DNA of 58,946 nt from an uncultured Lachnospiraceae bacterium (lineage in GTDB: Bacteria; Bacillota; Clostridia; Lachnospirales; Lachnospiraceae), in assembly GCA_947589095.1 (NCBI GenBank), contig CANQBX010000018.1:1-58946 (forward strand), read 5' to 3'. Made by a program: the position numbers and the translations under genes. The notes below the pieces were generated by a model that saw only the letters and a program-made list of their open reading frames with translations, searched no databases and was not told where the DNA came from. The first letter of the stretch is position 1; the number at the start of each line of letters is the position of its first letter. This document shows, in pieces, positions 3 through 53,634 of this stretch.

Positions 3-443
3 AGTCAGGAAACGATCCGTATGCACAGAAAAAAGCTGGCGCAGGATGAAAAGCGCATCACTGAACTTGACCGGCTTTTTATCCGTATCTATGAGGATAA
101 CGTAGCCGGACGGGTGAGCGACGAACGGTTCGCCATGATGAGCAGGAACTACGAAGATGAGCAGGAGCAGCTCAAAGCCGAAGTGCAGACATTACAGCAG
201 GAAATTGAAGTACAGGAACGACAGATTCAAGATTTGGAACAGTTTATCAAGCGGGTACGCAAATACGCTGACCTAAAGGAATTGACGCCATACGCCCTGC
301 GGGAGCTTGTGAAAGCGATTTATATTGGAGCGCCGGACAAGTCCAGCGGCAAGCGGCGGCAGGAAATTCGCATTGAGTATGACCTTGTGGGCTACATCCC
401 GCTGGATAAGCTGATGGAACAGGAAAAGCAGGAAACGGCATGA
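3..443 (+). CDS. C-terminal part of a large serine recombinase (DUF4368 type), cut by window edge
   Basis: The reading frame is open to the left edge, so only the last ~147 residues are present and the true start lies outside. What is seen is a long charged coiled-coil (roughly the first 75 residues, rich in E, Q, K and R), then a compact C-terminal region containing YADLKELTPYALRELVKAIY and ending near DLVGYIPLDKLMEQ. This layout matches the C-terminal coiled-coil and DUF4368 tail of large serine recombinases (TnpX/Tn4451-like resolvase family) that excise and insert conjugative or mobilisable elements in Clostridia. The catalytic N-terminal resolvase domain is not in view. In such elements the recombinase is often the last gene, so the element end is expected shortly after 443. 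The next gene converges from the other strand. Family assignment is fairly sure; the element type is inference. Confidence 0.85.
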   Translation, partial: SQETIRMHRKKLAQDEKRITELDRLFIRIYEDNVAGRVSDERFAMMSRNYEDEQEQLKAEVQTLQQEIEVQERQIQDLEQFIKRVRKYADLKELTPYALRELVKAIYIGAPDKSSGKRRQEIRIEYDLVGYIPLDKLMEQEKQETA

Positions 444-520
444 CCGAAATCATGCCGTCCCTGCAAAACTTGATAAAACTTTCTTACGATAGCCCCGGTT
501 TCATGGGATTTCTCCACATT

Positions 521-550
521 TAAGGGGCTTTAAGGGGTTCTAAGGGTTCT
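521..550. repeat. Three near-identical 10-bp tandem repeats past the recombinase gene
   Basis: Three consecutive units are TAAGGGGCTT, TAAGGGGTTC and TAAGGGTTCT. They lie between the recombinase stop and the convergent protease stop, where the end of an integrative element would be expected. They may be recombinase-binding or end sequences; that is inference. No inverted-repeat partner can be checked because the other element end is outside the window. Confidence 0.5.
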
Positions 551-581
551 GTTGCCATTATTTCGGATTCTACGTGAAAAC

Positions 582-3278: not shown

Positions 3279-3463
3279 CCATACATCCTCCTCTTGTTGC
3301 AGATACAGGAAATTCTGCCACAATTTTGCGCAGAACGCAACGTCGGCGGCGTGAAACGGCTTTTGTGAAGCATAAAATGCTTCCATACTGCTTCCGGATC
3401 ATCATCCGCCCCGCTGTATGACCGGGAGACCGCGTGCGGCAGGCGCTCCCGATCATTAGCTCA

Positions 3464-6400: not shown

Positions 6401-9400
6401 TTCGATATAGATCCGGTCCAGCGGATCCATTCCCTCGGCCGACAGTCTGTTCCGATAAGCCGTGCCAAATACCGGGTCGGAACCGCCTGTGAACATCTGG
6501 TCGAACAGCATCGACGCATAGGCGGCTGTCATACCGTCCCCGGCCGGATCCACGCCCCGGTTCCGGTTCGCCAGGCTCACCAGATCCCCCAATTCCCCGG
6601 TCCTGGTATTAAACTGCTGCGGGATCGCAACCGTCACGGCCGGGTACGCGTAATCGGTCAGTCCCAAATCCGCGAAGGGCCGCTCCGCCAGATCGCGGAC
6701 CAGCTGTCCGGACAGTTCCCGTCCCGTGCGGCGGATCCGGGGACGGAGCCCTTGATTCAGGATCCCGCTGATCTGTAATGTGTTCTCATGGCGAATGCCA
6801 TTTCCGGCCACGATCCGCCTGGTATCCTCCAGACTCATGCGGAGATCCGCGATCTCCTCAACACGCTGCCCGGAAAGGAAGTCCGCCCTCCTTCTGAAAT
6901 TCTGCGCCTCATTCAGCCATTGTTCCTCATGCTCACCGACCAGTCTTATGGCGTACAGCGTATCCGTGGCCTCTGCGTCCGCCCCGTCCGCGGCAAAGGG
7001 CAGCTCGTGCTGCATGGAATAGCGTATCGTCAGCGTATCCCCCGCCAGATGTCCGGCATAAGCCAGCACAGCGCTGACATAGGGCGAATTCTCCGGCGAA
7101 TCCATGAGCCGCAGAAATTCCTCCTGGGAATAAGCGGGATTTCGCCCCAGATCCAGCCCCATAACGGCGGCCAGTTCCTCTTTCATATCCAGACGGCGTA
7201 CGCTGCCCGGCTGCTGCGGAAGGGTCTGCCCCTGCGCCGGCTCCGTCGGATGCACCATCCGGCTCACGCGGGCGGCGATCGCATCGAACGCCTGCCAGTT
7301 TCCGTTTTCAACGCCCTCCCGGAGCGCCTCCGATACTTCGCGTCCCGCATCGCGCTTCTCATTCTTCAGGCTCTCCGGATCGGCCAGATCAGACAGATGG
7401 TACTTCTCATCTTTGGAGAGCAGATACATCTGCGCCATGGAACTGACCAGCCGGCCCGCTTCCTCGTCGCTGATCTCGCTCCCGAACAATTCCCGCATCC
7501 GATTTCCCGCAGCGGTCTTGTCAAAAATGTAGTCGTCGGTCATATCCGGCCGGTTCCGGTCGAACCGCCGCGCCGCCGAACGGTAGAACATATCCTCTCC
7601 GTCGGTATAGCTGATCTCCGCGGCGCGGTCGATCCTGGCCTGCATCGCCCCGCGGATGCGTTCGCGCCGGCTCTCCTGATCCCGGTTGGCGCGGGATGCG
7701 CGGAGCGCGGCGTTCGGATCCTGCCCCCGGCCGTCCAATGGCGCCAGGTCCACATGGACGTCCGTGACCCCGGCCCGCAGATTCCCGGCCGCATCCATCG
7801 CCACGCGGCCGACCTCTACGATATGCCTCCCGCTGATGGCGATAGCCGCGATCTCCGCTTTCAGCTGCCGGTCAGCACTTGCGACGACGTCCGGATACGG
7901 ATCCCCGTTGTTATCCCTCAGGGCCGCGCGGTTCCTCCATAAGTACTCGGCGGCGGACACTCCGTCAATATAGAACAGTTCCGCCTCGCAGGTGACCACG
8001 CCCGCCTCCGCAAGCAGTCCGGTCTCCTGATCGCCCAGCCCCAGCTGCCGCCGGATCTCCTCGTAAACCGGATACGCTCTTTCCACGTTTGCGCTGTCCA
8101 TGTTTACGATCCTGTCATCGGATAACTCCCTTACCGCCGCATAATCCGCCCGCTGCTGCTGCGTAAGCTCACCTTCACTGCCGCCCGGAAGATGGATCAA
8201 AGGCGTAAAGTTTCTTCTTATGTTCCCTGCGATCTGTTCCTGCCTCCGGCCGCGCGCCTCCTTCGTAAACTGCTCCGGATAAATGTGCGCCAGACCTTCC
8301 TGCCCTTCCGGACGGGGTCCTCCCCACTGGTACGACTGGCGGTCGGCCATGGCGGCAATGAGCCCCGCCCGGTCTCTTGCCATGGCTACGGGCAGACGGC
8401 TGTAATCCACGCGGAGTTCCCGCACATTGGACCGGACGTTGCCGCTGACCGGATCGGCCTCCGGCGAAGCGATATCCACCGGGCTGACGCCTCCCAGCGT
8501 CGCGCTGATGACCTCCGCCCGGAATATCCGCAGATACTCGGAATCCGGACGGTAATCCGGCTCCATATCCGCGTACTCCGGTATTCCTCTCATATATTCT
8601 TCCACGGATTTCCCGTCAATATAGAACAGCTGCTCCGGCGCCCGGATCCCCAGAAGATCCATCGTCCGGCGGTCCGGAATATCCGCGGCGGTCATCCGCA
8701 GGATATTGGCAAACATCTCATCCGTCATCTCAAAGGTGTCCTGGAGCACCTCAAACCCTCTTCTGTCCTCTGCGGAACGATCCGGATCCGCGGGCATCCG
8801 AAGACGCCGGGTGGAGTAAACGCCGCCGGACAGTCCGCCGGGTCTGTGGCTCTGCAGCCCCCACAGGGCCGACAGGCACTCGGCGAATATGGGGCCGTCG
8901 TTGCCTCCGTATTTTTCGCTGGATAAAAGCGCCCTCTGATCCCCTATGGGCAGCGCCGTCGTAATGACCGCGTTTTCCGCCCCCACGGCGGCAAAGGGAA
9001 CCGCAAGCCCCCTTCTCTCGGGCACGGGCGCGGCTTCCCTGTCCCTGCGCGCATAGCGGATATGTTCTGTCCTGTCCCTGCGTGCCTTCGGGTCGCTTAG
9101 AAGATCGCCCAGCCTCCGCCTGGACTCCTCCTCGCGGTCCCGGATCAGGTCTTCCTCATCCTCGGACAGCCTGTGCGGCATGGGTCTGACCGGAACTCTG
9201 CTGCTTTCCGCCATAGTACCGGTGCTGTCATAAGGCCACATCGGTATCAGCTTCTCCTGTCCCGCCGCGTCCGCTGCCATTACGTCAATCCGCGCTCCGG
9301 CCAGCATATGCTGCATGAACCGGCATTTCATGTCGGATTCCATTTTCTCATAAGACCGTCTCTCGGGCGTCTCCCGGTAAAGATCGCTTAAGCTTCTTCC

Positions 9401-12400
9401 ATCCACGAAAATGCAGTCGTAGATATCCATGCCGCGGGCCGCGAGCCGCTCCCGCTCGGCGCTTCCGAATACCCGCCCGAATACGGGATCGAAGCTCTGG
9501 GCGGCCCACTGTCTCGCCTCCGGTTCCAGCCTGCCGAGACCGCTCTGCGCATCCGACGACGTCAGTTCGGCGAATATCTCTGCGTCCATGGCTCCCATAT
9601 CCGCCGGGATCCCGTCCGCCGCGGCGAACCGGTTCCCGGCCGCCGGAATGTGATCATGGAGCGCATCCGCCATGGCCACGAAGTCCTCAAGCCGGGAACC
9701 TTCCTCTTCCAGAAGCTCCTCAAGCTCGCTTATATCGTTTGCCAGGAAATAGTTCTGCCATTCCCCGGCGGTGGAGTCGCCCACTCCGTAGCGAAGCATC
9801 TGCACCAGCATCATGCTTGCGCGGTACAGTTTTTCCGCTTCTTCATTCATCCGTTCGTCGGCCGCCTGCCCCGGCCTCTGTCCTTCGCTTACCGGAACCC
9901 TCGCATTTCTCTCCAGATACTCCCCCATCTCGGGATAAATGCGCATAAACTCCTGCTCGTAACGGATCTGATCCAGCTCTCCCCAGTTTCTCCGCAGCAG
10001 ATCCATGCATCGGCCAAAGACTTCCGCCTGGGCTGCGGGAACCGACGCCTGATACGCCTCAAGGCCGCGGAACGCCCTCTGGATATCGGCGACTTCCCGG
10101 GCTCCCAGTGCGGAATGGGCCAACACGTCAAAGATCCCGTCCGCAGCCAGCTCCTTCTTCGCCCTGTCATATCCCTGTCCGAGGACATTTCTCGCATCCT
10201 GATCCGAAGAAGCGATCCTGCGGCTGGTCATGAGCTCCTCGTAAGCATCCGTAAAATCCCTGTTGAGACGCGCTTTTCTTTCCGCCGGACGAAGCTGCCT
10301 GAATTCCTGACGCTGGTTCCCGGCACGTTCTTCCCGCACTCTCGCTGTTGCCCGGACCGTCTCCTGCCGTCTTGCTTCCTCCCTTGATTCCGCCTGCCGC
10401 GCCGCCTCACCGGCGCGTGCAGCCTCCCGCGCTCCGACGGTCGCCTCTACGATCTCCAGGGTTCTCCCGAGCGAGCGCTGGCTCGTCTCCACGCGCAGAA
10501 GCGCGCGGCTCGGCGCTCCGTCATAACGCGGCACTATTTTCCCGTCAGGAAGTACCTTCTCTACCTCGATCCGGTCCCCGGCCAGGAGCCGGGTCATCAG
10601 TTCTACCTTCGCCTTCTCCTCCGCTTCCAGCAGGGAAGCCGAAGACGCATTGTCATAGCTCTGGACAAGGGTCAGCATATCGGTTCCGCCCACCCGGATA
10701 TGCCGGTAGGCGGTACCGTCGCTCATCTGCTGCGGACTGAAATATTTACCGAAGGTCCGGTCAAAATTGGCGGCCAGCGTCGCCCTGGCGTTCGCCGAAA
10801 GGACGCCTGCAGTCGCGCCGCTGGCGTTTGCCGCAGGAGCGTCCGCGCTCCCGCCGTTGGCCAGTTCCCGCAGCCGCCGGGCCGCCTCTGCTCCGGAGGG
10901 CTCCGCCGTCCCGATCTCCTGCGCGATCCTCTGCGCGAACCGTTCGATCTCCGCCGCGTCCGCTTCCCTCCACGCGGAAAGCTGCATGACCGCCTCGTCA
11001 AACCTGCGCTCTTCCATACGCCTGCCGATATTCTCGGCACGCAGACGTTCCACAAGCGGACGTATACTGTCCGGGTCGATCCCGGCTCGGATCAGCTCAT
11101 AATACAGGGTGTAGCCCGGCCGTTCCTCGGCTCCGCCTCTGCTGTCAAAGTCAAATCCCCGCAGCACCTGTTCCAGGGTTTCGTCCGTTTCGCCCCAGGC
11201 ATATCGAAGGAGCCCCTCCGTCATCTTCAGCGCTTCTTCCAGCTGTCCGCTCGCCGCCTCGATCATATCCCTATCCAGCGAGCCGATACCATCGGACTCT
11301 CCGTTTCCGAACCGCTGACGGTTGTATTCATCCACGAACGCCCTCTGTTCCGGCGTCAGACGTTTTCTGTCTCTCGTGCAAAGGTACTGAACCCCGCGAT
11401 TATGGTCGATCTGTTCAAGCCACGCGTCCATGCGCATCAGTTCATCCATCTCGCGGACCAGATTGCGGAAAACATCTGTCAGCACACGGTAATCGTCCCG
11501 GATCGCCGGGTCCGCCGGCATAAATTCCGCCCTCCGGGCATACTCCTCCACCGCTGCTGAACGCTCAGCCACAGCCTCCATATTCGGGACATAGTTCCGT
11601 ACGCTGTCCGAATAAGTGCTCGCGACGGCAAACGTCGGATCCAGTGCCAGGAACCGCGGATTGCGGCCTGCTATCTGATTTGCCAGATCCGTATTGGACT
11701 GCATGCCGGCCGCGACCGTTTCCCACTCCGGAACCTTACGGACGTACTCGGTCGTATCCATCATGTTCTTCCACGCGGAATACAGACGGGAGAACGCCCA
11801 TGCCGGCTGGGCCGTCGCAAACTGCGGCTTCAGCTCTTCCCCATTCGGTCCCGCGGCCGGTTCCAGAAGCGCCCGCATATCTTCGGCTTTCTCACGTATC
11901 AGTGGCTTCCCGTCGGGCCCCCTCTGCCTGGACCCGTCGGGCATCAGGACATATTCCTTCTGTTTCTTCCCGCCGTATGACCGCAGATACGCGCCGGAGG
12001 GCCTTAAACGATCCTCTTCCTCCGGGATCTGAAGATCATTGATAAGTTCTGTGTTCCGGGGCAGAACGCCGTCGACGGCGATGAAGCTTCTCACCTTTTC
12101 CGCCGCCTGCCGGTTTGCCGCGCTGCGCGCGTCCCGTTCGGGATCTTCCGCGGCCTGCCGGGCGGGGCGGCTGAGTTCCTCATTCAGCCACTGTCCCTCC
12201 CTCTCTCCGATCGCCTCCAGGGTCCGGCAGGATCTCTGAAATTCCCTCTGGGTTTCGGATCGGTGGGTAAGCCTGACCGTACACAGCGCGTCGATATCCT
12301 GCGCAAACCGCCCCGTCGAAGCAAGCAGGGCGCCGACGCGGGGCGAATTGGCGGGAGACGCCATAAGCCGCCGGAACTCATCCTGGAAATAGGGCTGCTC

Positions 12401-14323
12401 CCGGCCGTGATCCAGATACATGGCCGAAGCCAGTTCCTGCTTCATATCCATCCGGGGTATCATATAGGCCACGTCCCCGGCAATCCTGTCATACGCTCCC
12501 CAGTCTTCACTGCGGACGGCACTCCGGATCGCGCCGGCCACCTCCAGACCCGCGGACAGCTTCTCTTCAGCGATCGCGGAGGGCGAGTACGTCAGATCTG
12601 CCATACGGATATCCGGTCTCTGGGACAGAAGATACGCCTGCGCCAGCGAAGCAAACATCCGTCTCCGCTCTGCCGCGTCCTCCGCTCTGCCGCCCGAATT
12701 GCCCCCCAGCCTCGCAAAAAAGTCTCTCAGTTCCTCGTCGGATATCACCGGTTCATTTCCGCCCATAAACTCGCCGGCCGCATCCGGCCTCTGCATATCG
12801 AACCGCCGCGCCGCCGTCTGCGCACGCCGCACCCGTTCATTCCGCGCCGCACTTGCGACGGTTCTTTCCAGCGAAGACTGGACTGTTTCCACCCGCAGCG
12901 GCGCCAGCTCCGCCGTTCCGTCAGCACGGCGCTTTACCGTGCCGTCCGGAAGTACCTTTTCCAGATCGACCGGCTCCCCGGTCAGGATCCGTACCATCAT
13001 CTCCGCCTTCGCCATCCGCATCGCTTCTTCCGGCGTATCCGTTTCTCCCGCATAATACCTGAGGACATCCGCCATACTGGCGTTCTCCATGCGGATATGT
13101 GAAAATGCGCTGCCGTCCTGCATCTGCTCGGTGCTGAAATACTTGTTAAACGTCCTGTCGAAATTCGCGGCCAGGGTCTGCCGGGCGCTCTCCGAAAGAG
13201 CCGCCGGATCGCTTAACCGGTCGCGGAGCAGACGTTCCCGGTCAGACGGCGACAGATTCCCTACCGCAGACGCCGCTGTAAGCTCCTGCGCAAACCGGCT
13301 GATATCCCGCGCGTCATCCTCTTTCCAGGCAGCCAGATGCAGGACCGCTTCGTCATACTCGCGGTTTTCCATACGCTGCTTAAGCCCGCTGTTCCTCAGA
13401 TTCTGCAGAAACGGGACCATACTGTCCGGATCGATTCCCGACCGGACCAGGCTGTAGTAGAGAAGCCAGGCGTTCGCCCGGTCCGCGCCGCCGGCATAAT
13501 CGGTTGAAAAGCCTTTCAGACTTCCCGCCAGATTCCCTGCCCCATCTCCCCAGGCATACTCTAATATCTCTCCGTCCAGCTCCGCGCTCTGTGTCCAATA
13601 TATCACCGCGCTAAGCATTTTGTTCTTATTCACCGATCCGCTTTCATCAGCGCGATGGAGCCTGTATGCGTTCCAGAAGTCCCTCTGCGCCTTCGTCATT
13701 CCGGAAGTATTCCGGCGGCTAAGCAGCGCCGCCATGTCAGGATCTTTTTCTATCTGCTCAAGCCAGACCGCCATTCGAACCAGATTTTCTCCTTCACGGA
13801 CCGCATTCCGCAAAACGTCTGTCAGGACGCGGTAATCCTCCCTGACCGACGCGTCAGGCGGCAGAAACTCCTCTCTGCGGGCATATTCCTCAATTTTGCT
13901 GACATTATTGACAATCTGGCTCCAGATGATCTCATTATTGACCAATGAGTTCGCATCATCGTGAGACGGAGAAATGACCGTCGGCTCCAGCGTCAGAAAC
14001 TGCTCTTTCCCGTTAATGAACGCGTCGGCCGCGGCCGCATCGCTTGTCAGACCGTCCAGATATTCATTCCATTCCGGCAATGGATGGTTCGGATCCTCCT
14101 TTAAGGCTTTCCATGCGGAATACAGCTTTGAAAAGCCCCAGGCAGGCCGGAAAGGCTCAAGCGCCGGTCCGTTTTCCTGCCCCTGCGGGCCGGTTCTCAA
14201 TTCCAGGACTGTCCTTGCGTCTTGTCCGGTATGGACCTTTTGCTCCACTCCGTTTATCACTTGTGTCGCGACTATTTCCTTCCCCTCGTATGGTTTTAAG
14301 TATGTTCCCGATGGCTTTGGCAT
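3464..14323 (-). CDS. Giant (~3,619 aa) internally repeated protein of unknown function
   Basis: Start chosen at 14323, which has a strong AAGGAGGAGAAG Shine-Dalgarno; an upstream ATG in frame at 14500 lacks one. I do not recognise a family. There is no signal peptide, no membrane segment and no sorting motif, so it is probably cytosolic. It is rich in Arg, Glu and Ala. The N-terminal ~770 residues are duplicated: PSGTYLKPYEGK near residue 3 matches PSGAYLRSYGGK near 772, followed by parallel stretches such as YRVLTDVLRN / YRVLTDVFRN and SGIDPDS / AGIDPDS. A shorter module (RFDMQRPD... near 505, RFDRNRPD... near 2255) is also repeated. A degenerate motif, [FY]-[IV]-D-G-x-S-[VL]-x-[DE]-[YL], recurs along the chain. 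A Pro/Gln/Thr/Ala linker lies near 3055-3130, with a Lys/Pro-rich tail. The reading frame is intact over 10.86 kb, which argues for selection. Confidence 0.9.
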   Translation of the reverse strand: MPKPSGTYLKPYEGKEIVATQVINGVEQKVHTGQDARTVLELRTGPQGQENGPALEPFRPAWGFSKLYSAWKALKEDPNHPLPEWNEYLDGLTSDAAAADAFINGKEQFLTLEPTVISPSHDDANSLVNNEIIWSQIVNNVSKIEEYARREEFLPPDASVREDYRVLTDVLRNAVREGENLVRMAVWLEQIEKDPDMAALLSRRNTSGMTKAQRDFWNAYRLHRADESGSVNKNKMLSAVIYWTQSAELDGEILEYAWGDGAGNLAGSLKGFSTDYAGGADRANAWLLYYSLVRSGIDPDSMVPFLQNLRNSGLKQRMENREYDEAVLHLAAWKEDDARDISRFAQELTAASAVGNLSPSDRERLLRDRLSDPAALSESARQTLAANFDRTFNKYFSTEQMQDGSAFSHIRMENASMADVLRYYAGETDTPEEAMRMAKAEMMVRILTGEPVDLEKVLPDGTVKRRADGTAELAPLRVETVQSSLERTVASAARNERVRRAQTAARRFDMQRPDAAGEFMGGNEPVISDEELRDFFARLGGNSGGRAEDAAERRRMFASLAQAYLLSQRPDIRMADLTYSPSAIAEEKLSAGLEVAGAIRSAVRSEDWGAYDRIAGDVAYMIPRMDMKQELASAMYLDHGREQPYFQDEFRRLMASPANSPRVGALLASTGRFAQDIDALCTVRLTHRSETQREFQRSCRTLEAIGEREGQWLNEELSRPARQAAEDPERDARSAANRQAAEKVRSFIAVDGVLPRNTELINDLQIPEEEDRLRPSGAYLRSYGGKKQKEYVLMPDGSRQRGPDGKPLIREKAEDMRALLEPAAGPNGEELKPQFATAQPAWAFSRLYSAWKNMMDTTEYVRKVPEWETVAAGMQSNTDLANQIAGRNPRFLALDPTFAVASTYSDSVRNYVPNMEAVAERSAAVEEYARRAEFMPADPAIRDDYRVLTDVFRNLVREMDELMRMDAWLEQIDHNRGVQYLCTRDRKRLTPEQRAFVDEYNRQRFGNGESDGIGSLDRDMIEAASGQLEEALKMTEGLLRYAWGETDETLEQVLRGFDFDSRGGAEERPGYTLYYELIRAGIDPDSIRPLVERLRAENIGRRMEERRFDEAVMQLSAWREADAAEIERFAQRIAQEIGTAEPSGAEAARRLRELANGGSADAPAANASGATAGVLSANARATLAANFDRTFGKYFSPQQMSDGTAYRHIRVGGTDMLTLVQSYDNASSASLLEAEEKAKVELMTRLLAGDRIEVEKVLPDGKIVPRYDGAPSRALLRVETSQRSLGRTLEIVEATVGAREAARAGEAARQAESREEARRQETVRATARVREERAGNQRQEFRQLRPAERKARLNRDFTDAYEELMTSRRIASSDQDARNVLGQGYDRAKKELAADGIFDVLAHSALGAREVADIQRAFRGLEAYQASVPAAQAEVFGRCMDLLRRNWGELDQIRYEQEFMRIYPEMGEYLERNARVPVSEGQRPGQAADERMNEEAEKLYRASMMLVQMLRYGVGDSTAGEWQNYFLANDISELEELLEEEGSRLEDFVAMADALHDHIPAAGNRFAAADGIPADMGAMDAEIFAELTSSDAQSGLGRLEPEARQWAAQSFDPVFGRVFGSAERERLAARGMDIYDCIFVDGRSLSDLYRETPERRSYEKMESDMKCRFMQHMLAGARIDVMAADAAGQEKLIPMWPYDSTGTMAESSRVPVRPMPHRLSEDEEDLIRDREEESRRRLGDLLSDPKARRDRTEHIRYARRDREAAPVPERRGLAVPFAAVGAENAVITTALPIGDQRALLSSEKYGGNDGPIFAECLSALWGLQSHRPGGLSGGVYSTRRLRMPADPDRSAEDRRGFEVLQDTFEMTDEMFANILRMTAADIPDRRTMDLLGIRAPEQLFYIDGKSVEEYMRGIPEYADMEPDYRPDSEYLRIFRAEVISATLGGVSPVDIASPEADPVSGNVRSNVRELRVDYSRLPVAMARDRAGLIAAMADRQSYQWGGPRPEGQEGLAHIYPEQFTKEARGRRQEQIAGNIRRNFTPLIHLPGGSEGELTQQQRADYAAVRELSDDRIVNMDSANVERAYPVYEEIRRQLGLGDQETGLLAEAGVVTCEAELFYIDGVSAAEYLWRNRAALRDNNGDPYPDVVASADRQLKAEIAAIAISGRHIVEVGRVAMDAAGNLRAGVTDVHVDLAPLDGRGQDPNAALRASRANRDQESRRERIRGAMQARIDRAAEISYTDGEDMFYRSAARRFDRNRPDMTDDYIFDKTAAGNRMRELFGSEISDEEAGRLVSSMAQMYLLSKDEKYHLSDLADPESLKNEKRDAGREVSEALREGVENGNWQAFDAIAARVSRMVHPTEPAQGQTLPQQPGSVRRLDMKEELAAVMGLDLGRNPAYSQEEFLRLMDSPENSPYVSAVLAYAGHLAGDTLTIRYSMQHELPFAADGADAEATDTLYAIRLVGEHEEQWLNEAQNFRRRADFLSGQRVEEIADLRMSLEDTRRIVAGNGIRHENTLQISGILNQGLRPRIRRTGRELSGQLVRDLAERPFADLGLTDYAYPAVTVAIPQQFNTRTGELGDLVSLANRNRGVDPAGDGMTAAYASMLFDQMFTGGSDPVFGTAYRNRLSAEGMDPLDRIYIEGRSVNDLYREKYRDLAMTDPKRAMDCMKTEFMIRLLQGARIDVAAEQNGVEILSAMALQTDIRDFNRRAWLTVPRGEENFPRFVGATEARQGFTVPPMTAEMAESIYESQWIAADRALRGGNAPALSAGQDGPETRRVRSSWEEKRSADRRDRLTEDVRTGQVADSIAYRMRMADDINETGGADIRNALFRLYADGEGEFKRIFGQNYTRTQDDNSLLNAASGWLDGIIKKATYGEAPRIGTETVPTRLQEMMGYSNTNMTDLFRIDGMTVKEYADAHGLSKMLEGENAETNRKAILASVLVGGEHHVDMIRSGLAANERGENVAYKTGVAGIQIDLSPFDGMVRFYQTRPSRKAERLYGDMSGRSERHQKIRQAADEQLFRALAAEQQEEEAQERRDLAAAAESDRLNRIQGARPAAAQPQPTPAVQPGTTQPAQNPAAQPGSTQPAPTPAAQSGPTQPTPAAQSAPARTPRPQPVKAPRLAPAPQPCTGLKLEDREIAEMLRKEGFQALCHDERRKSLVGILRGRTDEAWLTFGDLRRSLADRSGTPAPQDSRVLQDEYKLLAGLFERLEDLDSPDPVMSPDVPDVMRTDSYKKFKKFLSDVADVLQPDDPKTREKKLNRVSKTMDGLFYALVSIHFPYGMDFSDSEKIADFRQEFTNLANLTRILRDIERAVYPDMRENSAIEAAHNIFDAAVKVYGSDQADTVPDRLVSRYILDQLGIGVGGFIAQRGSIGLVIDTLNEKYADRFRIIQKPEEIAARVDLLLKDDRSSRELERYYIGKDSADKNAKAPVCPIDNKQYYHGLPPAADAASIQESQEWARRGREEARLAERRERLQVYREANRARAENVAENMAVKQEQKPADGNPKRRRASEFVREIRGIANPKPSEKKESAEAKPLEKQTVAGDRNPAPAANPNRRLATELQEEIRGGVKPKTAESKRSEALQQKSAEKKEPMEKKGPAEKKPPEKAPSAGGMK
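4935..5165. repeat. Minisatellite-like repeats encoding a Pro/Gln/Thr/Ala linker in the giant gene
   Basis: Within the giant gene the DNA repeats with a period of about 33-42 bp, encoding units like TQPAQNPAAQPGS, TQPAPTPAAQSGP and TQPTPAAQSAP. The encoded stretch looks like a flexible spacer between the repeated helical modules and the C-terminal domain. Unit number may vary between strains; that is inference. Confidence 0.7.
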
Positions 14324-14514
14324 ATCCTTCTCCTCCTTGTCCTCCGGATCGTCCGGCAGGCCTGTTTTATTCCATTCGGCTGCTTTGCTTCCGGCCATTC
14401 CCCGCGCCCGCGTCTTTCGCGGCGGAAACAGCCGGTCTGCGTTAATTCTGGATCCATCATAACAGGCAAAGGACAACAAATGTACAACACAGCCCGGCAA
14501 TCAGCCGCATTTTT

Positions 14515-45777: not shown

Positions 45778-45956
45778 GACCATTTACCGCTGCCTGCCGA
45801 ATCACTTACCGGCAGATTACCCGCAGTCCGGCCAGATCATTTACCGGCAAATAACTTAGCTCCGCCCGCCGGATCACTTACCGGCAGATTACCCGCAGTC
45901 CGGCCAGATCATTCACCGGCAAATAACTTATCTCCACCCGCCAGCTCACTTCACCA
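45778..45956. repeat. 72-bp tandem repeat with a ~36-bp sub-period, behind gpmI
   Basis: The block starting ATCACTTACCGGCAGATTAC at 45801 recurs at 45873, nearly identical over 72 bp. Each unit splits into two related halves beginning ATCACTTACCGG and ATCATTTACCGG, and partial halves flank both sides, the last running to the gpmI stop. The gap 45416-45945 otherwise holds the antiporter promoter region and the terminator at 45667. Confidence 0.85.
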
Positions 45957-47490
45957 GCAGCGACTCCCCGGTCATTTCCTTCGGCTTCTCCATGCCCATC
46001 AGCTCGATCAGCGTCGGCACGATGTCCGCCAGCTTGCCGCCCTCGCGCAGCTTGTAGGACGGATCCGCGTTCACCAGAATGAACGGCACCGGGTTCGTCG
46101 TATGGGCCGTGAACGGCTCGCCGGTCTCATAGTCGATCAGCTGCTCCGCATTGCCGTGGTCGGCGCAGATGAACATCACGCCGTCCACCTCCTTGATCGC
46201 CTCCACCGCGCGGCCCACGCAGGCGTCCACCGTTTCGATGGCTTTGATCGCCGCGGCCTCCACGCCGGTATGACCCACCATATCCGGGTTCGCGAAGTTG
46301 ATGATGATCACATCGTACTTGCCCGACTTAATGCACTCCACCAGCTTATCGCAGACGCCCGGCGCGCTCATCTCCGGCTTCAGATCGTAGGTCGGAACCT
46401 CCTTCGGGGACGGGATCAGGAACCGGTCCTCACCCTCATTGGGCTCCTCCACGCCGCCGTTGAAGAAGAACGTCACATGGGCATATTTCTCCGTCTCTGC
46501 GATCCTGGCCTGCTTAAGGCCGTTGGCCGCCAGCCACTCGCCGAAGGTATTGGTGACCATTTCCTTCTTAAACGCCACCAGCTTATTCTCGATCGTATCG
46601 TCATAGTCCGTGAAGCAGACATAGACCAGGTTCTTCATCCTGGGTCCGCGCGCAAATCCGGTAAACTCCTCGTCGCAGAACGCCCTCGTGATCTCGCGTG
46701 CGCGGTCCGGCCGGAAGTTATAGAAAATAATGGAATCGCCGTCCTTCACAGTCGCCACCGGATGGCCGTCCTCCATCACAATGACCGGCTCCACGAACTC
46801 GTCGAACACTTCCTTATCATAGGACGCCTGGATTCCCGCCGCAGCGCTCTCCGCCGGATTCCCCTCGCCCATGACCAGCGCGTGATAGGCCCGTTCCACG
46901 CGGTCCCAGCGCTTATCGCGGTCCATCGCGTAGAAACGTCCCTGAACCGTGGCTACCTTGCCTACGCCCAGCTCCGCCATCTTCGCTTCCAGCGCCTCCA
47001 CATACTCCTTGCCGGACGCCGGAGGCGTATCGCGGCCGTCCAGGAAGCAGTGGACATACACCTTCTTCAGGCCATGACGCTTCGCCAGCTCCAGCAGTCC
47101 GTAAATATGCGTATTATGGCTGTGGACGCCGCCGTCGGACACCAGGCCCCACATATGCAGTGCAGAATCATTCTTCTTACAGTTCTCCACCGCCGTCAGA
47201 AATTCCGGGATCTCGAAGAAATCGCCGTCCTGAATGGACTTGGTGATCCGGGTCAGTTCCTGGTACACAATGCGCCCTGCGCCCATGTTCAGGTGTCCAA
47301 CCTCCGAGTTGCCCATCTGCCCGTCCGGCAGACCCACGAAAAGGCCGCTTGCCTGTCCCTTCACGAAGGGGCACTGGCTCATCAGCTGGTCCATGACCGG
47401 CGTCTTCGCCTCACAGACAGCGTTGGCCTCGCACTTATCATTCAGGCCGTAGCCGTCGAGAATCATCAGTACTGTTGGTTTCTTGCTCAT
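45946..47490 (-). CDS. gpmI: 2,3-bisphosphoglycerate-independent phosphoglycerate mutase
   Basis: 514 aa, the usual length. Phosphatase-domain metal site LMILDGYGLN with D12; nucleophile Ser in DGQMGNSEVGHLN (S62); substrate-binding HCFLDGRDTPP; second metal cluster with NFANPDMVGHTG and FICADHGNAEQL. It interconverts 3- and 2-phosphoglycerate with Mn2+ in glycolysis. Upstream (47605-47633) is a good promoter, so it is expressed apart from other glycolytic genes. Confidence 0.97.
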   Translation of the reverse strand: MSKKPTVLMILDGYGLNDKCEANAVCEAKTPVMDQLMSQCPFVKGQASGLFVGLPDGQMGNSEVGHLNMGAGRIVYQELTRITKSIQDGDFFEIPEFLTAVENCKKNDSALHMWGLVSDGGVHSHNTHIYGLLELAKRHGLKKVYVHCFLDGRDTPPASGKEYVEALEAKMAELGVGKVATVQGRFYAMDRDKRWDRVERAYHALVMGEGNPAESAAAGIQASYDKEVFDEFVEPVIVMEDGHPVATVKDGDSIIFYNFRPDRAREITRAFCDEEFTGFARGPRMKNLVYVCFTDYDDTIENKLVAFKKEMVTNTFGEWLAANGLKQARIAETEKYAHVTFFFNGGVEEPNEGEDRFLIPSPKEVPTYDLKPEMSAPGVCDKLVECIKSGKYDVIIINFANPDMVGHTGVEAAAIKAIETVDACVGRAVEAIKEVDGVMFICADHGNAEQLIDYETGEPFTAHTTNPVPFILVNADPSYKLREGGKLADIVPTLIELMGMEKPKEMTGESLLVK

Positions 47491-47867: not shown

Positions 47868-50003
47868 ATGAAAAAACTGGAATATAGCATTGAGGATCGT
47901 ACTATAGCTGAAATACTTGGTGTTCAGAATTTTACAAACGCTGAATCTGCGGTTCTGGAATTGGTGAAAAACGCATTTGACGCCTGCGCCAAAGAGATCT
48001 TTATCACGATTCATCCCAATGAGATGATCTTCGAGGATAATGGCACTGGCATGAGCGCCCAGACTATCATTCAAAACTGGATGCACATCGGCAAAAGCGA
48101 CAAAGACTATACCGTAACTGACGGTAAAGACGTCCGCGTTCTGGCCGGCTCCAAGGGGGTCGGAAGGTTTGCGCTGGCACGATTGGGAAGTGAGGTTGAA
48201 CTGCACTCTAAAATGCAGGGGAAAGAAAGCATTCTGTGGCAGACCGACTGGAATGTCAGCACTCTGGACCGTTCGGACAGATCAGAAAATGGAACCCGCA
48301 TTGTGATAAGGGATCTCCGCGACCATTGGACCCCCGCCAAGGTGCGTAACCTGCAGTACTTCTTATCGCGAACCTACAATGATGATGTCATGAAAATCTG
48401 GCTGGAATACCAGGGAACCCGAACAGAAGTCAAAAAATACTTTCAGGATTTCACACTGGGAGTTCACGGCGTCAGTATCATCCGTCTGGACTATTCAGCC
48501 AAAAAACAAATCATGACCTGTAAGATCGAATCGGATGAATTCAAGGAAGAAGCCATGCGCTACTGTCCGGAAATAAACTTAAAAAAAGTCCTTCTGCAGC
48601 TGAATATGGTTGACGAACTCATTGGCTATTCCGACGATATGACGCAGGACGACCTGACCGCAGCGCTGAAACGGGTGGGCAGTTTTCATGCGGAGTTGTA
48701 TTTTTCCCTGAAGAATCCATCCTCTGTAGATGCCGATAAATTTTTGTACAAATATCGGTTCCTTAACAATCGATATGAACAGGGCGTAATTCTCTACCGA
48801 AACTCTTTCAGCATCTCCTCCTATGAGGGCAAGAAAGACTGGCTCGGGTTCGGCGCCCGCTCCCGTATGTCGCCTGCGGCAGCCTCACACCCTACCGGTT
48901 CCTGGCGCGTACGTGAAAATCAAATCTCCGGCAAGGTAGTGATCGACAAAAGAGAAAATTGCGATCTGCGCGATCTCGCTAACCGGCAGGGATTAGAAGA
49001 GAATGACTCGTACAAGTTATTCATTCAGCTCATTCTCTCCGGCATACAGTGCTTCGAGCGCTACCGCCAGAACATTATCCGACATATTAATAAAAAGAAC
49101 GCGCCGGAAGAACCTGCTTCCCTGAAGATTATTGAAAAAGTCCTGAAAAGCCCTGAATCCCTGACTGCGTTGACCCTTCCGGAACAGGGTACTTTCCTCG
49201 CTGAACTTAAAACTCTTCAGAAAGAAAACAAAGAGAGCCGCCGGCAGATGTCCGAACAAGAAGAACATTACCGTTATGATATACGGCTCCTCAATCTCTT
49301 CGCAACATCCGGCTTAAAAGCGACTTCTATCGCACATGATATGTATAATAACCGCAACAGCCTGGATGAGAATGTCAATTATATCATCAGCGCCCTAAAA
49401 CAGTATGAGCTCTGGGATATCGTCGATTCAGAAGAAAACAAGCGCTACATCCACCGCAATATTCCGGGCCTTCTGGCCAAGAACCAGAGACTCAATAAAA
49501 AAATGGTCAATTTTATGACCGTACTGCTGTCAGAATCAGAAAAAGAGCAGTTCAACCCAGAAGAAATCGATGTATATAAACTTATGACCGAAATCAAAAA
49601 TGTCTGGGAGAAGGACTATGCCTGGATCCGAATTGATCTGGATATGGAAAAGGATATTATCCATAAAAGCGCCAAAGATATTTTCTGGGTCATTTTTGAT
49701 AATCTGATACTGAACAGCGTCCAACAGAACGATTACAGAAACGGTCTGGATATTTATATTCGTATCATTCAGCAGGGAAGACAGCTGCAGATTGAATACA
49801 GTGACAACGGAGCCGGCCTGCCTCCCAAATACATTCTGGATCCCATGCGGATTCTGGAAGTCCACGAAACTTCCAGAAAGAACGGTCATGGAATCGGAAT
49901 GTGGATCGTAAACAATACCGTAAGGAACACGGCCGGTGAAATATTGAACATCGACGGAAACAAAGGGTTCAAATTCCTTTTCACGCTAGGAGATAAACTA
50001 TAA
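47868..50003 (+). CDS. Hsp90/MORC-like GHKL ATPase fused to a histidine-kinase transmitter
   Basis: Start at 47868 (711 aa), because MKKLEYSIEDRTIAEILGVQNF is the natural beginning of the GHKL domain; an ATG at 47763 has a stronger ribosome-binding site (GGAAGAGG) but adds a basic, unrelated-looking stretch. The N-terminal GHKL domain has an N-box LELVKNAFDA (N35), G1 EDNGTGM and G2 GSKGVGRFALAR (94-105), of the Hsp90/MutL/MORC sort. The C-terminal half is a kinase: H-box TSIAHDMYNNRN (H490), N-box DNLILNSVQQN (about 612), YSDNGAGLP and GHGIGMWIV. There are no membrane helices, so it senses something cytosolic. The stop overlaps the next start by 1 base (TAATG). First gene of the candidate defence operon, AT-richer than the core genes. 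Confidence 0.9.
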   Translation: MKKLEYSIEDRTIAEILGVQNFTNAESAVLELVKNAFDACAKEIFITIHPNEMIFEDNGTGMSAQTIIQNWMHIGKSDKDYTVTDGKDVRVLAGSKGVGRFALARLGSEVELHSKMQGKESILWQTDWNVSTLDRSDRSENGTRIVIRDLRDHWTPAKVRNLQYFLSRTYNDDVMKIWLEYQGTRTEVKKYFQDFTLGVHGVSIIRLDYSAKKQIMTCKIESDEFKEEAMRYCPEINLKKVLLQLNMVDELIGYSDDMTQDDLTAALKRVGSFHAELYFSLKNPSSVDADKFLYKYRFLNNRYEQGVILYRNSFSISSYEGKKDWLGFGARSRMSPAAASHPTGSWRVRENQISGKVVIDKRENCDLRDLANRQGLEENDSYKLFIQLILSGIQCFERYRQNIIRHINKKNAPEEPASLKIIEKVLKSPESLTALTLPEQGTFLAELKTLQKENKESRRQMSEQEEHYRYDIRLLNLFATSGLKATSIAHDMYNNRNSLDENVNYIISALKQYELWDIVDSEENKRYIHRNIPGLLAKNQRLNKKMVNFMTVLLSESEKEQFNPEEIDVYKLMTEIKNVWEKDYAWIRIDLDMEKDIIHKSAKDIFWVIFDNLILNSVQQNDYRNGLDIYIRIIQQGRQLQIEYSDNGAGLPPKYILDPMRILEVHETSRKNGHGIGMWIVNNTVRNTAGEILNIDGNKGFKFLFTLGDKL

Positions 50004-50587
50004 TGGAAAAAATCAGACTTGTTTATATCGATAACGATCCGGAAGAGGCAATCTCCGCCTATCTGGAACAGGAATACCGCAACGACAACTATGAGATCGA
50101 ATATCAGGAGCTTTCATTTAACTGCCAGGAAGGCTACGAGGGTCTTCTTCAATCGCCAATCGTAACCTCAGCTAACGTTATACTGATCGATTCATTTCTT
50201 TTTGACAATGATCTTCGATCCGAAGGAAAGTTTTCCGGAGAAGAATTCCGTATTATTCTTCGTAAAATATATCCCTTTATCGAGGTTCTGGTCATCACAC
50301 AGAACGGCGAGAATAAGGAGTATGGCATTATTCCCAAATACCGTGGCCAGATGGGAAGAAACGCCAGCGACTACTACCGCGAAACTCTGAAAGCGGCCAT
50401 TGACGAAAGCATCGAGCGAATTACCATATTCCGCAATATTTCGCAGAAACTGCAGAATAACGCCGGAATCGACAAGCTGCTCGTCGATCGGGTCGAACAA
50501 TCCTTAAACGGCGTCACAGAAAATTACGATGCTCTCAAAAAAGCAGATATCGATAACTTAATTAAAATATTCCAAAGTTTAGAGTAA
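50003..50587 (+). CDS. Stand-alone receiver (response-regulator-like) protein
   Basis: 194 aa, translationally coupled to the kinase-fusion gene. Receiver signature: acidic pair D10/D12 in VYIDNDPEE, phospho-acceptor D63 in VILIDSFLF, T99 in VLVITQNG and a possible conserved Lys (K112, IIPKYRG). A helical C-terminal part of ~70 residues (about 125-194) carries no helix-turn-helix or enzyme signature. It should receive phosphate from the kinase encoded before it. Its output may be by protein contact, for example gating the nuclease or methyltransferase, or it may be a phosphate sink. Followed after 9 bp by the HNH gene. Confidence 0.82.
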   Translation: MEKIRLVYIDNDPEEAISAYLEQEYRNDNYEIEYQELSFNCQEGYEGLLQSPIVTSANVILIDSFLFDNDLRSEGKFSGEEFRIILRKIYPFIEVLVITQNGENKEYGIIPKYRGQMGRNASDYYRETLKAAIDESIERITIFRNISQKLQNNAGIDKLLVDRVEQSLNGVTENYDALKKADIDNLIKIFQSLE

Positions 50588-50596
50588 GGGGATTTT

Positions 50597-51259
50597 ATGA
50601 CCAACGATTACAGGAACACGGAATACTGTCCTGCTTATGAAAATATAGGTAAAAAAAAGCAGGCCCTGAAATGCAAAATTCTAACAGCTTCACCCAAAAC
50701 CCATAATTTTTATAACAAGATCAGCACCCGAAAGGATCCATATCACCAATCCTTTGCCGAAATCTATAACTGTAAATGCGCTTACTGTGGAGCTAAATGG
50801 GGCGAGCTTCCGACTACATCCTTTGAAATTGACCACTTTATCAAAAAAAATGCCCATCCGGACACTGCGGAAGGCCGGGAAGCTGACGGGCAGATTGAAA
50901 ACCTTGTATGGTCCTGCTATGAATGTAACCGCGGCAAAAGCGATTTGTTGATAACCGCTCCATACGACGCTGCTCTGAACCCGGATGATGGAAGTATCAC
51001 CAATATCTTCTGCCGCAGCGAAGACTATACCATCCGCATCCGTGAAAAATATCAAAATGACAGTTTCATCAGGGCTTTTTACAAGGCCCTCGGTCTGGAT
51101 CGGGAAAGCAAACGCCTGGATTACCTGATTCTAAAACTAAGAGGGAAAATCAAACAGGAAACGGATGCTCAAAAGAAACTGAAGTTTTACGAAGCGCTAA
51201 GTATTTTACAAGAAAAGAGAAATACATATACTCAAAACCATGAAAGACAGAGAAAATAA
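50597..51259 (+). CDS. HNH endonuclease
   Basis: 220 aa; AAGGGGATTTT before the ATG. The HNH/beta-beta-alpha-metal core is intact: zinc Cys pair CAYC (C61, C64), TSFEIDHFIKK with D79-H80, NLVWSCYECNRGK with the Asn (about 102) and the second Cys pair C107/C110. Regions before and after are charged and helical with no other domain recognised. HNH enzymes of this form nick or cut DNA, as in restriction systems and the PtuB subunit of Septu. The gene's last 20 bases overlap the methyltransferase gene, tying it to DNA modification. Confidence 0.9.
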   Translation: MTNDYRNTEYCPAYENIGKKKQALKCKILTASPKTHNFYNKISTRKDPYHQSFAEIYNCKCAYCGAKWGELPTTSFEIDHFIKKNAHPDTAEGREADGQIENLVWSCYECNRGKSDLLITAPYDAALNPDDGSITNIFCRSEDYTIRIREKYQNDSFIRAFYKALGLDRESKRLDYLILKLRGKIKQETDAQKKLKFYEALSILQEKRNTYTQNHERQRK

Positions 51260-52874
51260 ACTTTCCGGCTCCTATTATACTCCATGCAAAACCATTCATT
51301 TTATGCGCGATTATTTGCGGAAGAATGACATGAAATACACATCCATGCTGGAACCTTCTGCCGGCGACGGCCGGTTCCTGAATGAATTTTTGAAAAATCC
51401 TGCTCCTGCCGGAATCAGCATCACAGCCGTAGAACTTATTCCGGAAAAGGCAGACATGCTGCGTGCCCAAAATTACCCCGGCACTGTCACCATCTGCCAG
51501 CAGGATTTTTTGGACTACGCCGTGGGTTCCACGCAAAGATACGATCTCATTATCGGCAATCCTCCTTACATCAACATCAAAAACATGGACGCTCTCTCCT
51601 TAAAAAAAGCGAAAAGCTTCTGTGTAAAATCCAATCTTCCGGAAAGTCTGATGAAGAATATGTGGGTAGCCTTTCTGCTGGCGTCTGTGTCTCTTTTAAC
51701 GCCGCAAGGCTGCCTATTCTTCGTTCTGCCGCTGGAATTCCTTCAGGTACAATATGCGGAAAAAGTCCGCCTTTTTTTGGAAAAGCGATTCAATGCCATA
51801 CACATCATTACATTTGATGAACCGATGTTTCCCGCTATCGAACAGGAATCCTGCCTGGTATACCTGTCCAATTCTCCGGGAACCACCCCATACATACGCT
51901 TCGAACATTACCCTCAGCTTGACTCCAAAACACCCGCCAAACAATCCGTTGTCGAGTGGAACAAACCGCTGAAGAAATGGACCAACGCGATCCTCTCCGA
52001 TACAGATATTGACCTTCTTCACGCCATTAGCCGGCAGTATCCGAAGGTCTCCAGCCTCTGTGATGCCTCTCCAGGTATTGTCACCGGGGCTAACAGCGCA
52101 TTCATTATATCTGACCAAAAGAGTAGGGAACTGAACGCCCAGGACTATGTTCTCACAATTCTCTCCAAAAGCAGCATGGTCAAGGACGAATTAATCATAG
52201 ACCAGAACATTCTGGATGATTTGCGGAACCGGCAGCAAAAAATCTATCTCTTAAACCTCGCCAATTTAAATGAGCAGACGCTTCCGCCAGAGTTAACTGC
52301 TTACCTGACAGCGATTGGAGAAACGGAAAACAGTGCGAATATCAAACTCAAAGACCGCTATAAATGCAAGAACAGGACTCCCTGGTACGGAGTCCCGATT
52401 GTCCGCAATGGTGATCTGTTCTTTTTTAAGCGATACGATAAAATTCCCAGAATAAGCGTGAACGCCGCCGATGTATACACTACCGACATTGCCTATAACA
52501 TGCGCCTCGTCCAAGATTATCACCGCGAGAGCGTCGCTTTCTGTTTCTATAACTCCCTGACCCTCGCTCAATGCGAGTACCTGGGGAGATACTATGCCGG
52601 TGGGGTGTCCGAACTGGTTCCAAGCGAGTTCAAAGAGCTTGTTATTCCCTACCGCCATATCTCTCAAAAAGACATCTCTGCACTGGCCGATATGTTCCAC
52701 CAAAACAAAAGTATCGATGAAATCACTGACTTTGTTAACTCCCGGACAATCGGCCAGGAAATAGAAACGGATCAAATCCGGAAGCTGGATGAAATACGAC
52801 GAAAACTGATGGAAAGGAGATGCAAGATGTCAGTGAATTCACTATCTCGCAACCTATTGCACGTCGATAAATAA
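51240..52874 (+). CDS. N6-adenine DNA methyltransferase (Eco57I/TaqI-like)
   Basis: 544 aa; begins inside the HNH gene. S-adenosylmethionine-binding motif I LEPSAGDGRFLNEF (about 37-50), an acidic motif II region TAVELIPEKA, and catalytic motif IV DLIIGNPPYINI (NPPY 107-110). The order is that of class-gamma adenine methylases. The C-terminal half (about 250-500) resembles a target-recognition domain: TPWYGVPIVRNGDLFFFKRY, then YYAGGVSELVPSEFKELVIPY. No nuclease motif is fused, so cutting is presumably by the HNH protein. Such methylases protect the host's DNA at a specific site that cannot be read off the sequence. Confidence 0.92.
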   Translation: MKDRENKLSGSYYTPCKTIHFMRDYLRKNDMKYTSMLEPSAGDGRFLNEFLKNPAPAGISITAVELIPEKADMLRAQNYPGTVTICQQDFLDYAVGSTQRYDLIIGNPPYINIKNMDALSLKKAKSFCVKSNLPESLMKNMWVAFLLASVSLLTPQGCLFFVLPLEFLQVQYAEKVRLFLEKRFNAIHIITFDEPMFPAIEQESCLVYLSNSPGTTPYIRFEHYPQLDSKTPAKQSVVEWNKPLKKWTNAILSDTDIDLLHAISRQYPKVSSLCDASPGIVTGANSAFIISDQKSRELNAQDYVLTILSKSSMVKDELIIDQNILDDLRNRQQKIYLLNLANLNEQTLPPELTAYLTAIGETENSANIKLKDRYKCKNRTPWYGVPIVRNGDLFFFKRYDKIPRISVNAADVYTTDIAYNMRLVQDYHRESVAFCFYNSLTLAQCEYLGRYYAGGVSELVPSEFKELVIPYRHISQKDISALADMFHQNKSIDEITDFVNSRTIGQEIETDQIRKLDEIRRKLMERRCKMSVNSLSRNLLHVDK

Positions 52875-52904
52875 TGATGTACAATGACAAAGAGAAGGCA
52901 TTGT
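52857..52904 (+). promoter_or_regulatory. Promoter and operator candidate of the Xre/S24 gene
   Basis: TTGCAC (52857-52862), 17-bp spacer, TACAAT (52880-52885), lying across the end of the methyltransferase gene. An inverted repeat ACAATG (52881-52886) / CATTGT (52899-52904) straddles the -10 and the start region, a fitting autoregulatory site for the repressor that follows. Confidence 0.6.
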
Positions 52905-52905
52905 C

Positions 52906-53634
52906 ATGGATAAACTTGAAATCGGAAAAAGAATTAAACATGCCCGAAAAATGAGAAATATGACATTGGAAAATATCGCGCAGAAAGTTAGCGTTGCGCG
53001 TTCCACGATACAGAGATATAAGGCCGGAAAGATTGAAAGGATAAAACTCCCAGTACTCGAATCCATTGCAAAAGCACTCGACGTCAGCCCTTCATGGCTG
53101 TCGGGCCTATCCGATGACATGAATCAACCCGCTTTATCAGACAATCTCGTCAATGTCTTCCCCATCGAGCGGGATCGCCTGCCTGTACTTGAAGAAACCG
53201 TCTGCGGAGGGATACGTTACGCCGATGAAGAGAAGGAAATCTACGTTAAGGCCGGGACGGATCTTAGGGCCGATTTCTGCCTTCAGGCCAAGGACAACAG
53301 CATGATCAACGCTCGAATCAAGAATGGCGACATCATTCTGGTAAGGAAGCAGGACATGACCGAGAACGGTGAAATTGCTGCTGTCGTAGTGAACTGCGAT
53401 AAGGAGGCCACGCTGAAACGACTCCGCAAATCCGACTGCCAGCCAGATGGAAACAAACGCCGCGAGGTGCGGTCACAACACCTCGCTGTGCGTGTATGTT
53501 TTCGCCGCCGTGCTATTACCGTCATGATCCCCACGATGATTCTTCCACTTCTTAAGCTTTCGCTAGTTCACGCTTCATTAAATCGCAAAATTTCTTCCTG
53601 CTGTCCACGCAGGCTCTCTCGTACATCTTATTGA
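52906..53634 (+). pseudogene. Xre/S24 (LexA/CI-like) repressor, C-terminally truncated
   Basis: HTH region in residues 7-62 (IKHARKMRNMTLENIAQKVS, VARSTIQRYKAGKIERIKLP) and a LexA-like S24 domain with catalytic S132 in KDNSMINARIKNGDIILV and K171 in EATLKRL. Beyond residue ~174 the sequence no longer fits the family: instead of the last ~40 residues of the fold there is Arg/Cys-rich, low-quality sequence with no matching frame elsewhere. The dyad is kept but the C-terminal strands are lost, so it is probably inactive or altered. The break point lies near 53430. Likely the regulator of the preceding operon. Confidence 0.75.

Follow-up and report, generated by a model that had tools for sequence, protein, structure and literature searches.

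Introduction

Histidine kinases located beside restriction-modification (R-M) genes are a type of system that has been glimpsed before. In the accessible text of Bellieny-Rabelo et al. 2021 (PMC8011034), soluble HEF_HK kinases are found beside stand-alone Response_reg_2 receivers and are enriched near R-M genes. C5 methylases and Vsr predominate among the R-M neighbours, which also include HNH variants and N6/N4 methylases. The paper links the kinases to paraMORCs and raises control of R-M systems as a speculation. An earlier study, likewise accessible in part, placed MORC and paraMORC ATPases in R-M operons (Iyer et al. 2008, PMC2292703). Here we describe a locus at positions 47868..53634 of a 58,946-nucleotide stretch of DNA (the window) from an uncultured Lachnospiraceae bacterium (GCA_947589095.1, contig CANQBX010000018.1). 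It encodes a kinase with a MORC-like N-terminal half, a receiver, an HNH nuclease and an adenine methylase. We report its anatomy, its conservation, its invariant phospho-acceptors, the joint inheritance of kinase, receiver and nuclease, and an adenine methylase that can be exchanged. From these features we infer phosphotransfer and function, and we favour, with some confidence, the reading that this is an R-M (defence) operon in which the nuclease is gated by a phosphorelay.

Two named defence systems are also useful reference points. In Detocs a PNP effector is fused to the receiver, and in Septu a PtuA-type ATPase is encoded beside the HNH protein PtuB.

Results

Architecture of the operon

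The four genes run in the same direction with almost no spacing, and an open reading frame (ORF) that resembles a repressor adjoins them:

47868..50003, + strand: kinase, 711 amino acids; ATPase module of MORC/Hsp90-like type at about residues 7-408, then a long helix, a helix with the histidine H490, and a catalytic ATPase domain at about 563-711
50003..50587, + strand: stand-alone receiver, 194 amino acids; phospho-acceptor D63, acidic D10, T99, helical C-terminus, no output domain found
50597..51259, + strand: HNH nuclease, 220 amino acids; C61/C64/C107/C110, D79-H80, N111, K114
51240..52874, + strand: Eco57I-like N6-adenine DNA methylase, 544 amino acids; NPPY at residues 107-110
52906..53634, + strand: Xre/S24 repressor-like ORF; shortened S24 match, judged to lie outside the system

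A first-pass annotation had described a GHKL ATPase-kinase fusion (H490), a receiver (D63), an HNH nuclease and an NPPY methylase in one tight operon, and this observation was confirmed. Its interpretation as a whole is supported in part: the conserved unit and the co-inheritance of its members stand, the membership of the S24 repressor does not.

A Pfam search of the window proteins assigned two domains to the kinase (HATPase_c_3 and HATPase_c), one to the nuclease (HNH, PF01844) and two to the methylase (Eco57I and M_Eco57I_C). It gave no match for the receiver alone and no helicase among the five proteins listed above. As in histidine kinases, the acceptor histidine of the kinase sits in a helix, and the catalytic domain downstream of it has the N, G1 and G2 motifs. 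The N-terminal half combines a GHKL ATPase with an S5-like domain, as in MORC and paraMORC proteins, and both HATPase domains are present in all 38 kinases scanned. The best structural match of the predicted kinase model is MORC3, with further matches to Hsp90 and kinase structures, which bears out the proposed resemblance to MORC and Hsp90.

The receiver has a receiver fold with the acceptor aspartate, an acidic pocket and the Thr/Ser position. Foldseek alone gave mixed matches to its model, the top one being a lysine decarboxylase, while receivers made up almost exclusively the best 50 matches listed by VIA-align. Domain scans detected no DNA-binding or recognised output domain in it. The four cysteines of the HNH nuclease are presumably metal-binding.

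Conservation of the four-gene unit

Relatives were sought in a collection of one genome per species (84,980 species), with the kinase alignment as the sole query. Candidates found by a single peptide pattern gave 534 confirmed relatives, of which the best 80 loci were kept for the census, and distant branches are therefore under-sampled. The census required a receiver and an HNH gene downstream on the kinase strand, so this order is a condition of the count and not a result. Because the wide receiver profile learned from ORFs that lie between kinase and HNH genes, the receiver counts are partly circular; the profiles for the HNH nuclease and the methylase started from the window's own proteins. 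Near-identical loci (L087/L088/L097, L089/L090/L093 and L108/L109) were counted singly, and L030 and G400, which are equal in length (80842), probably represent one contig.

Among the best 80 of the 534 loci, a receiver adjoins the kinase in 76, an HNH nuclease is present in 71 and a related methylase on the same strand in 75. All four genes occur in 70 loci, which thus hold a DNA methylase and a nuclease in one operon, as Type II R-M systems do. Seven failing loci (L033, L052, L058, L072, L075, L078 and L103) reach the end of their contig 0-669 bases from the kinase match. Where at least 3.5 kb downstream and 2 kb upstream are available, 53 of 55 loci have the four genes on one strand. In L083 the methylase lies on the other strand, convergent and just past the HNH gene, and L080 has lost the C-terminal part of the kinase, the receiver and the HNH nuclease and kept a full methylase. 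Of the 70 complete loci, 48 begin with the methylase and 22 end with it. The gap between kinase and receiver is no more than 20 bp in all 66 loci measured, and the same holds for receiver and HNH nuclease in 65 of 66.

Control loci look different. In 19 loci of generic kinases or GHKL proteins the HNH and methylase profiles found nothing and the receiver profile matched two; 20 loci of a sister branch gave no HNH nuclease and three matches to the methylase profile (L111, L117 and L123). The kinase-selected census and the control loci rule out a chance neighbourhood, and the co-occurrence check suggested with the first-pass annotation points to a real, widely conserved unit.

Both proposed phospho-acceptors are invariant in the census loci (H490 in 73 of 73 kinases, D63 in 72 of 72 receivers), among loci whose kinase identity goes down to about 24%, and the ATP-binding motifs of the kinase are conserved across relatives. 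This constancy bears on one alternative, an ordinary Type II R-M system in which the HNH nuclease is itself site-specific, the GHKL protein is an ATP-driven DNA clamp, and the His-Asp pair serves structure or assembly and carries no signal. Such a system would fit the near-full-length match of the methylase to the PADLOC Type II methylase model (5.9e-123) and the likeness of the N-terminal GHKL module to PADLOC REase_II (8.7e-09) and to the BbrUII/HgiDII restriction enzymes (NF050001, 1.9e-17), although the latter match is confined to residues 15-170 and scores 63 bits against a cut-off of 550. At an E-value of 1e-10, two PADLOC Type II restriction models match 2 of 38 and 1 of 38 kinases. We regard this alternative as unlikely in view of the invariant acceptors and the retained ATP-binding motifs, and also of the methylase exchange described next.

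Joint inheritance and methylase exchange

For a co-evolution test the census loci were thinned to 60 representatives and 500 permutations were made. Receiver identity tracks kinase identity with a rho of 0.876 (best permutation 0.285) and HNH identity does so with a rho of 0.852 (best permutation 0.160), as expected if the three are inherited together. The methylase follows the kinase only weakly (rho 0.325; best permutation 0.262), because two methylase groups, found in 52 and 14 of 67 loci with one locus in neither, replace each other. Among pairs of loci with kinases 45-65% alike, the methylases are less than 15% alike in 184 of 635. The HNH median is 38.9% in those pairs and 40.5% in pairs with methylases at least 30% alike, so the nucleases are about as similar whether or not the methylases are alike, a point that speaks against an ordinary Type II system. 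The methylase groups were exchanged at least seven times, and the gene layout changed at least five times, on the kinase tree. This is a single quick tree of 66 rows that omits L098, was made without shuffles and has weak support at 20 of its 64 inner branches. One locus, L055, has two methylases (6574-7989 and 11354-12946), one on each side of a single kinase-receiver-HNH core.

These figures also bear on the idea that kinase and receiver regulate the expression or activity of the methylase or the R-M genes, with no direct action on the nuclease. The accessible text of PMC8011034 does speculate that signalling cascades may control R-M systems, either directly or by indirect routes. No DNA-binding domain was found in the receiver, however, and receiver and HNH nuclease are far more closely co-inherited than methylase and kinase, which leaves purely regulatory control very improbable.

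Every one of the 54 well-covered loci with the nuclease also has a methylase, and the single decayed locus of the 55 kept it as well, as self-protection predicts. This pattern speaks against abortive infection, in which an infection would lead the receiver-activated HNH nuclease to destroy the host's DNA while the methylase serves some other task. A precedent for such behaviour is the defensive two-component system Detocs, which degrades ATP on phage recognition and can abort infection (PMC11249213, as far as its text was accessible). We consider abortive infection improbable here.

Distribution and surroundings

In the genus of the window a full-length kinase of this family occurs in 4 of 26 genomes, and all four carry the whole set. 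In a fifth genome the kinase is accompanied by a longer receiver, and the HNH and methylase profiles find no match. Of 398 genomes sampled evenly across the phylum, with two candidates scored per genome, two matched at an E-value of 1e-30, and only the match in the window's own genome was full-length. Searches with the receiver were less informative: PF19192 had no match in 299 genomes of the phylum, nor in control genomes; a receiver-only search of plasmids and phages found no match; and a receiver-only search of 41 relatives found 2 genomes, missing divergent versions that the kinase profile recovered. Plasmids carry the set too: annotated ones in Bacteroides, Salipiger and Deinococcus, and one in Ensifer that has no annotation. 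The kinase tree mixes phyla, with Rodentibacter, Succinivibrio and Treponema among the Bacillota. This patchiness and these mixed-phylum clades are a misfit with a housekeeping role in repair. A DNA repair or mismatch system, made of a MutL-like ATPase, a nicking HNH nuclease and a strand-marking methylase, is therefore hard to credit, even though MutL-type GHKL ATPases and Vsr nucleases occur with related proteins in the accessible parts of PMC8011034 and PMC2292703.

The flanks of the loci were sampled from 225 eligible ORFs (64 loci); 118 were chosen and 115 from 33 loci were scanned, three at locus edges being left out, and the family tallies cover the first 25 of 194 and of 97 families. 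Among the matches listed there are at least three Type I specificity subunits, three Mrr_cat nucleases, five integrases, two TniQ and one TnsD, beside ordinary genes such as GidA, MurJ and glycosyl hydrolases. No background was measured, so no enrichment is claimed. The patchy distribution and the proximity of some loci to other R-M and mobile genes agree with the defence-like setting that had been proposed.

At the downstream boundary, the Xre/S24 ORF had been taken as part of the system. It is not conserved beside the operon in relatives, and the S24 repressor was rejected as the operon's controller on that ground. Its S24 match ends early, and the ORF may be a mobile-element remnant. At the upstream boundary, the gene at 45946-47490, which looks like a phosphoglycerate mutase by eye and has no family call, was recovered in 23 of 25 genomes. 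No clean empty site was seen in the flanks compared among relatives, which differ. In L149, from the same genus as the window, a strongly divergent methylase-first version (3-4979, its methylase cut by the edge of the sequence stretch examined) lies about 4 kb from a homologue of this bordering gene, whose neighbourhood is possibly a favoured insertion site. Elsewhere in the window, a single ORF of 3678 amino acids occupies 3464-14500 on the minus strand.

The sister branch (L024, L029 and part of L111-L131), which is found on plasmids and viral contigs, combines a MORC-like kinase and a receiver protein of another build. A C5 methylase adjoins in two annotated plasmid loci, and PF19191 and PF19192 each match one of 37 proteins scanned. 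Three of its loci (L029:9785-10465, L124:10235-10900 and L129:10196-10864) encode a protein of about 220 amino acids after the receiver, with a His-Gly and a later Cys motif, a putative caspase/CHAT-type peptidase. In L025 (9019-11022) and L027 (9022-10932) a protein of 636-667 amino acids follows the kinase. Its N-terminus is receiver-like by eye, it has no relevant Pfam match, and it is a possible fusion of a receiver to an unknown effector.

Discussion

The four-gene set is probably an anti-virus DNA cutter that is switched on by phosphorylation. In the mechanism that we propose, the MORC-like ATPase half would be the sensor and would close when it meets its trigger. The likeliest triggers are DNA that is foreign or unmodified, or a structure formed in phage replication. 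The closed dimer would allow the C-terminal kinase to phosphorylate H490, and the phosphate would move to D63 of the stand-alone receiver. Having no recognised output domain, the phosphorylated receiver would work by protein contact and activate the HNH nuclease against phage or foreign DNA, while the methylase would mark the cell's own DNA and so protect the host.

Several observations weigh against the phosphorelay-gated nuclease. The receiver position corresponding to K112 is a lysine in only 46 of 72 receivers, and kinase and receiver could be a scaffold. The defence annotator recommended as a check, PADLOC, recognises the unit in part, with a strong match for the methylase alone. One locus, L068, has 2.8 kb of sequence downstream and holds a shortened kinase only, the other three genes being absent. 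The sole candidate for a receiver-HNH fusion (L036:5214-6278, one open frame of 354 amino acids) may be a product of decay, since the neighbouring kinase gene is broken and the N-terminus of the HNH nuclease is absent, and it was set aside as proof of contact. Inside either methylase group, methylase and kinase do vary together, which indicates that exchange is rare. Swapping of target domains was not seen inside the groups; both methylase halves track the kinase, and this speaks against frequent changes of specificity.

A broader version of the phosphorelay proposal, which we put forward tentatively and with more doubt than belief, separates the reading of self and non-self from cutting. A MORC-type clamp-kinase would read the state of the DNA, a His-Asp phosphorelay would license a nuclease that itself lacks site specificity, and the methylase would be a plug-in part that can be swapped by group without changing the nuclease.

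If a phosphorelay does gate the nuclease, this would be a restriction system under signal control. It could explain how a potentially lethal DNA cutter is kept without a constant tight balance with its methylase, and phosphorylation of H490 would be a direct read-out of what MORC-like ATPases sense. The two invariant residues, H490 and D63, make the idea testable by single mutants.

Comparison with known systems

The general idea of kinase/receiver pairs beside R-M genes is already published, and the adenine-methylase/HNH four-gene branch was not found in the literature searched. A search of open-access literature without preprints, which could miss a subscription paper, found neither this branch as a fixed four-gene unit, nor the exchange of methylases, nor the fold that joins MORC and kinase parts. 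The accessible parts of PMC12839542 and PMC10952713 hold nothing on this gene set; a figure of predicted systems in DefensePredictor (PMC13092281) names HATPase and REC, and the gene content of those systems is not visible in the accessible part. The earlier statement that nothing named has exactly this set is weakened by the related pair published in 2021 (PMC8011034).

That HEF_HK/Response_reg_2 pair is the closest relative. In the accessible text it shares the soluble kinase with HATPase_c_3, histidine helix and HATPase_c, the adjacent receiver, the R-M neighbourhood and a spread over many phyla. It differs in that it mostly accompanies C5 methylases and Vsr, with HNH_2 as the commonest HNH, whereas the present set has an adenine methylase and one constant HNH type, which in the window is PF01844. 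Neither PF19191 nor PF19192 matches any of our 38 kinases and 38 receivers at an E-value of 0.01, or the window's own kinase and receiver at an E-value of 1. The MORC/paraMORC proteins, as far as PMC2292703 could be consulted, share the N-terminal GHKL ATPase, the S5-like domain that follows it and the R-M operon, but here a histidine-kinase core replaces their nuclease or TIR extension.

The likeness to Septu is slight: the operon's ATPase is of the GHKL type and its HNH nuclease matches PtuB models of PADLOC weakly (5.6e-08). In VcSduA (Shedu) a GHKL ATPase is also thought to control a nuclease, but this is a single protein with a PD-(D/E)XK nuclease, for which the accessible text of PMC12137116 mentions no kinase core, receiver or methylase. 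With Detocs, as described in the accessible part of PMC11249213, the operon shares two-component signalling that drives an effector. No PNP domain is present among the five window proteins in the Pfam scan; the effector is a separate HNH nuclease and not an ATP-cleaving PNP, and an adenine methylase is added.

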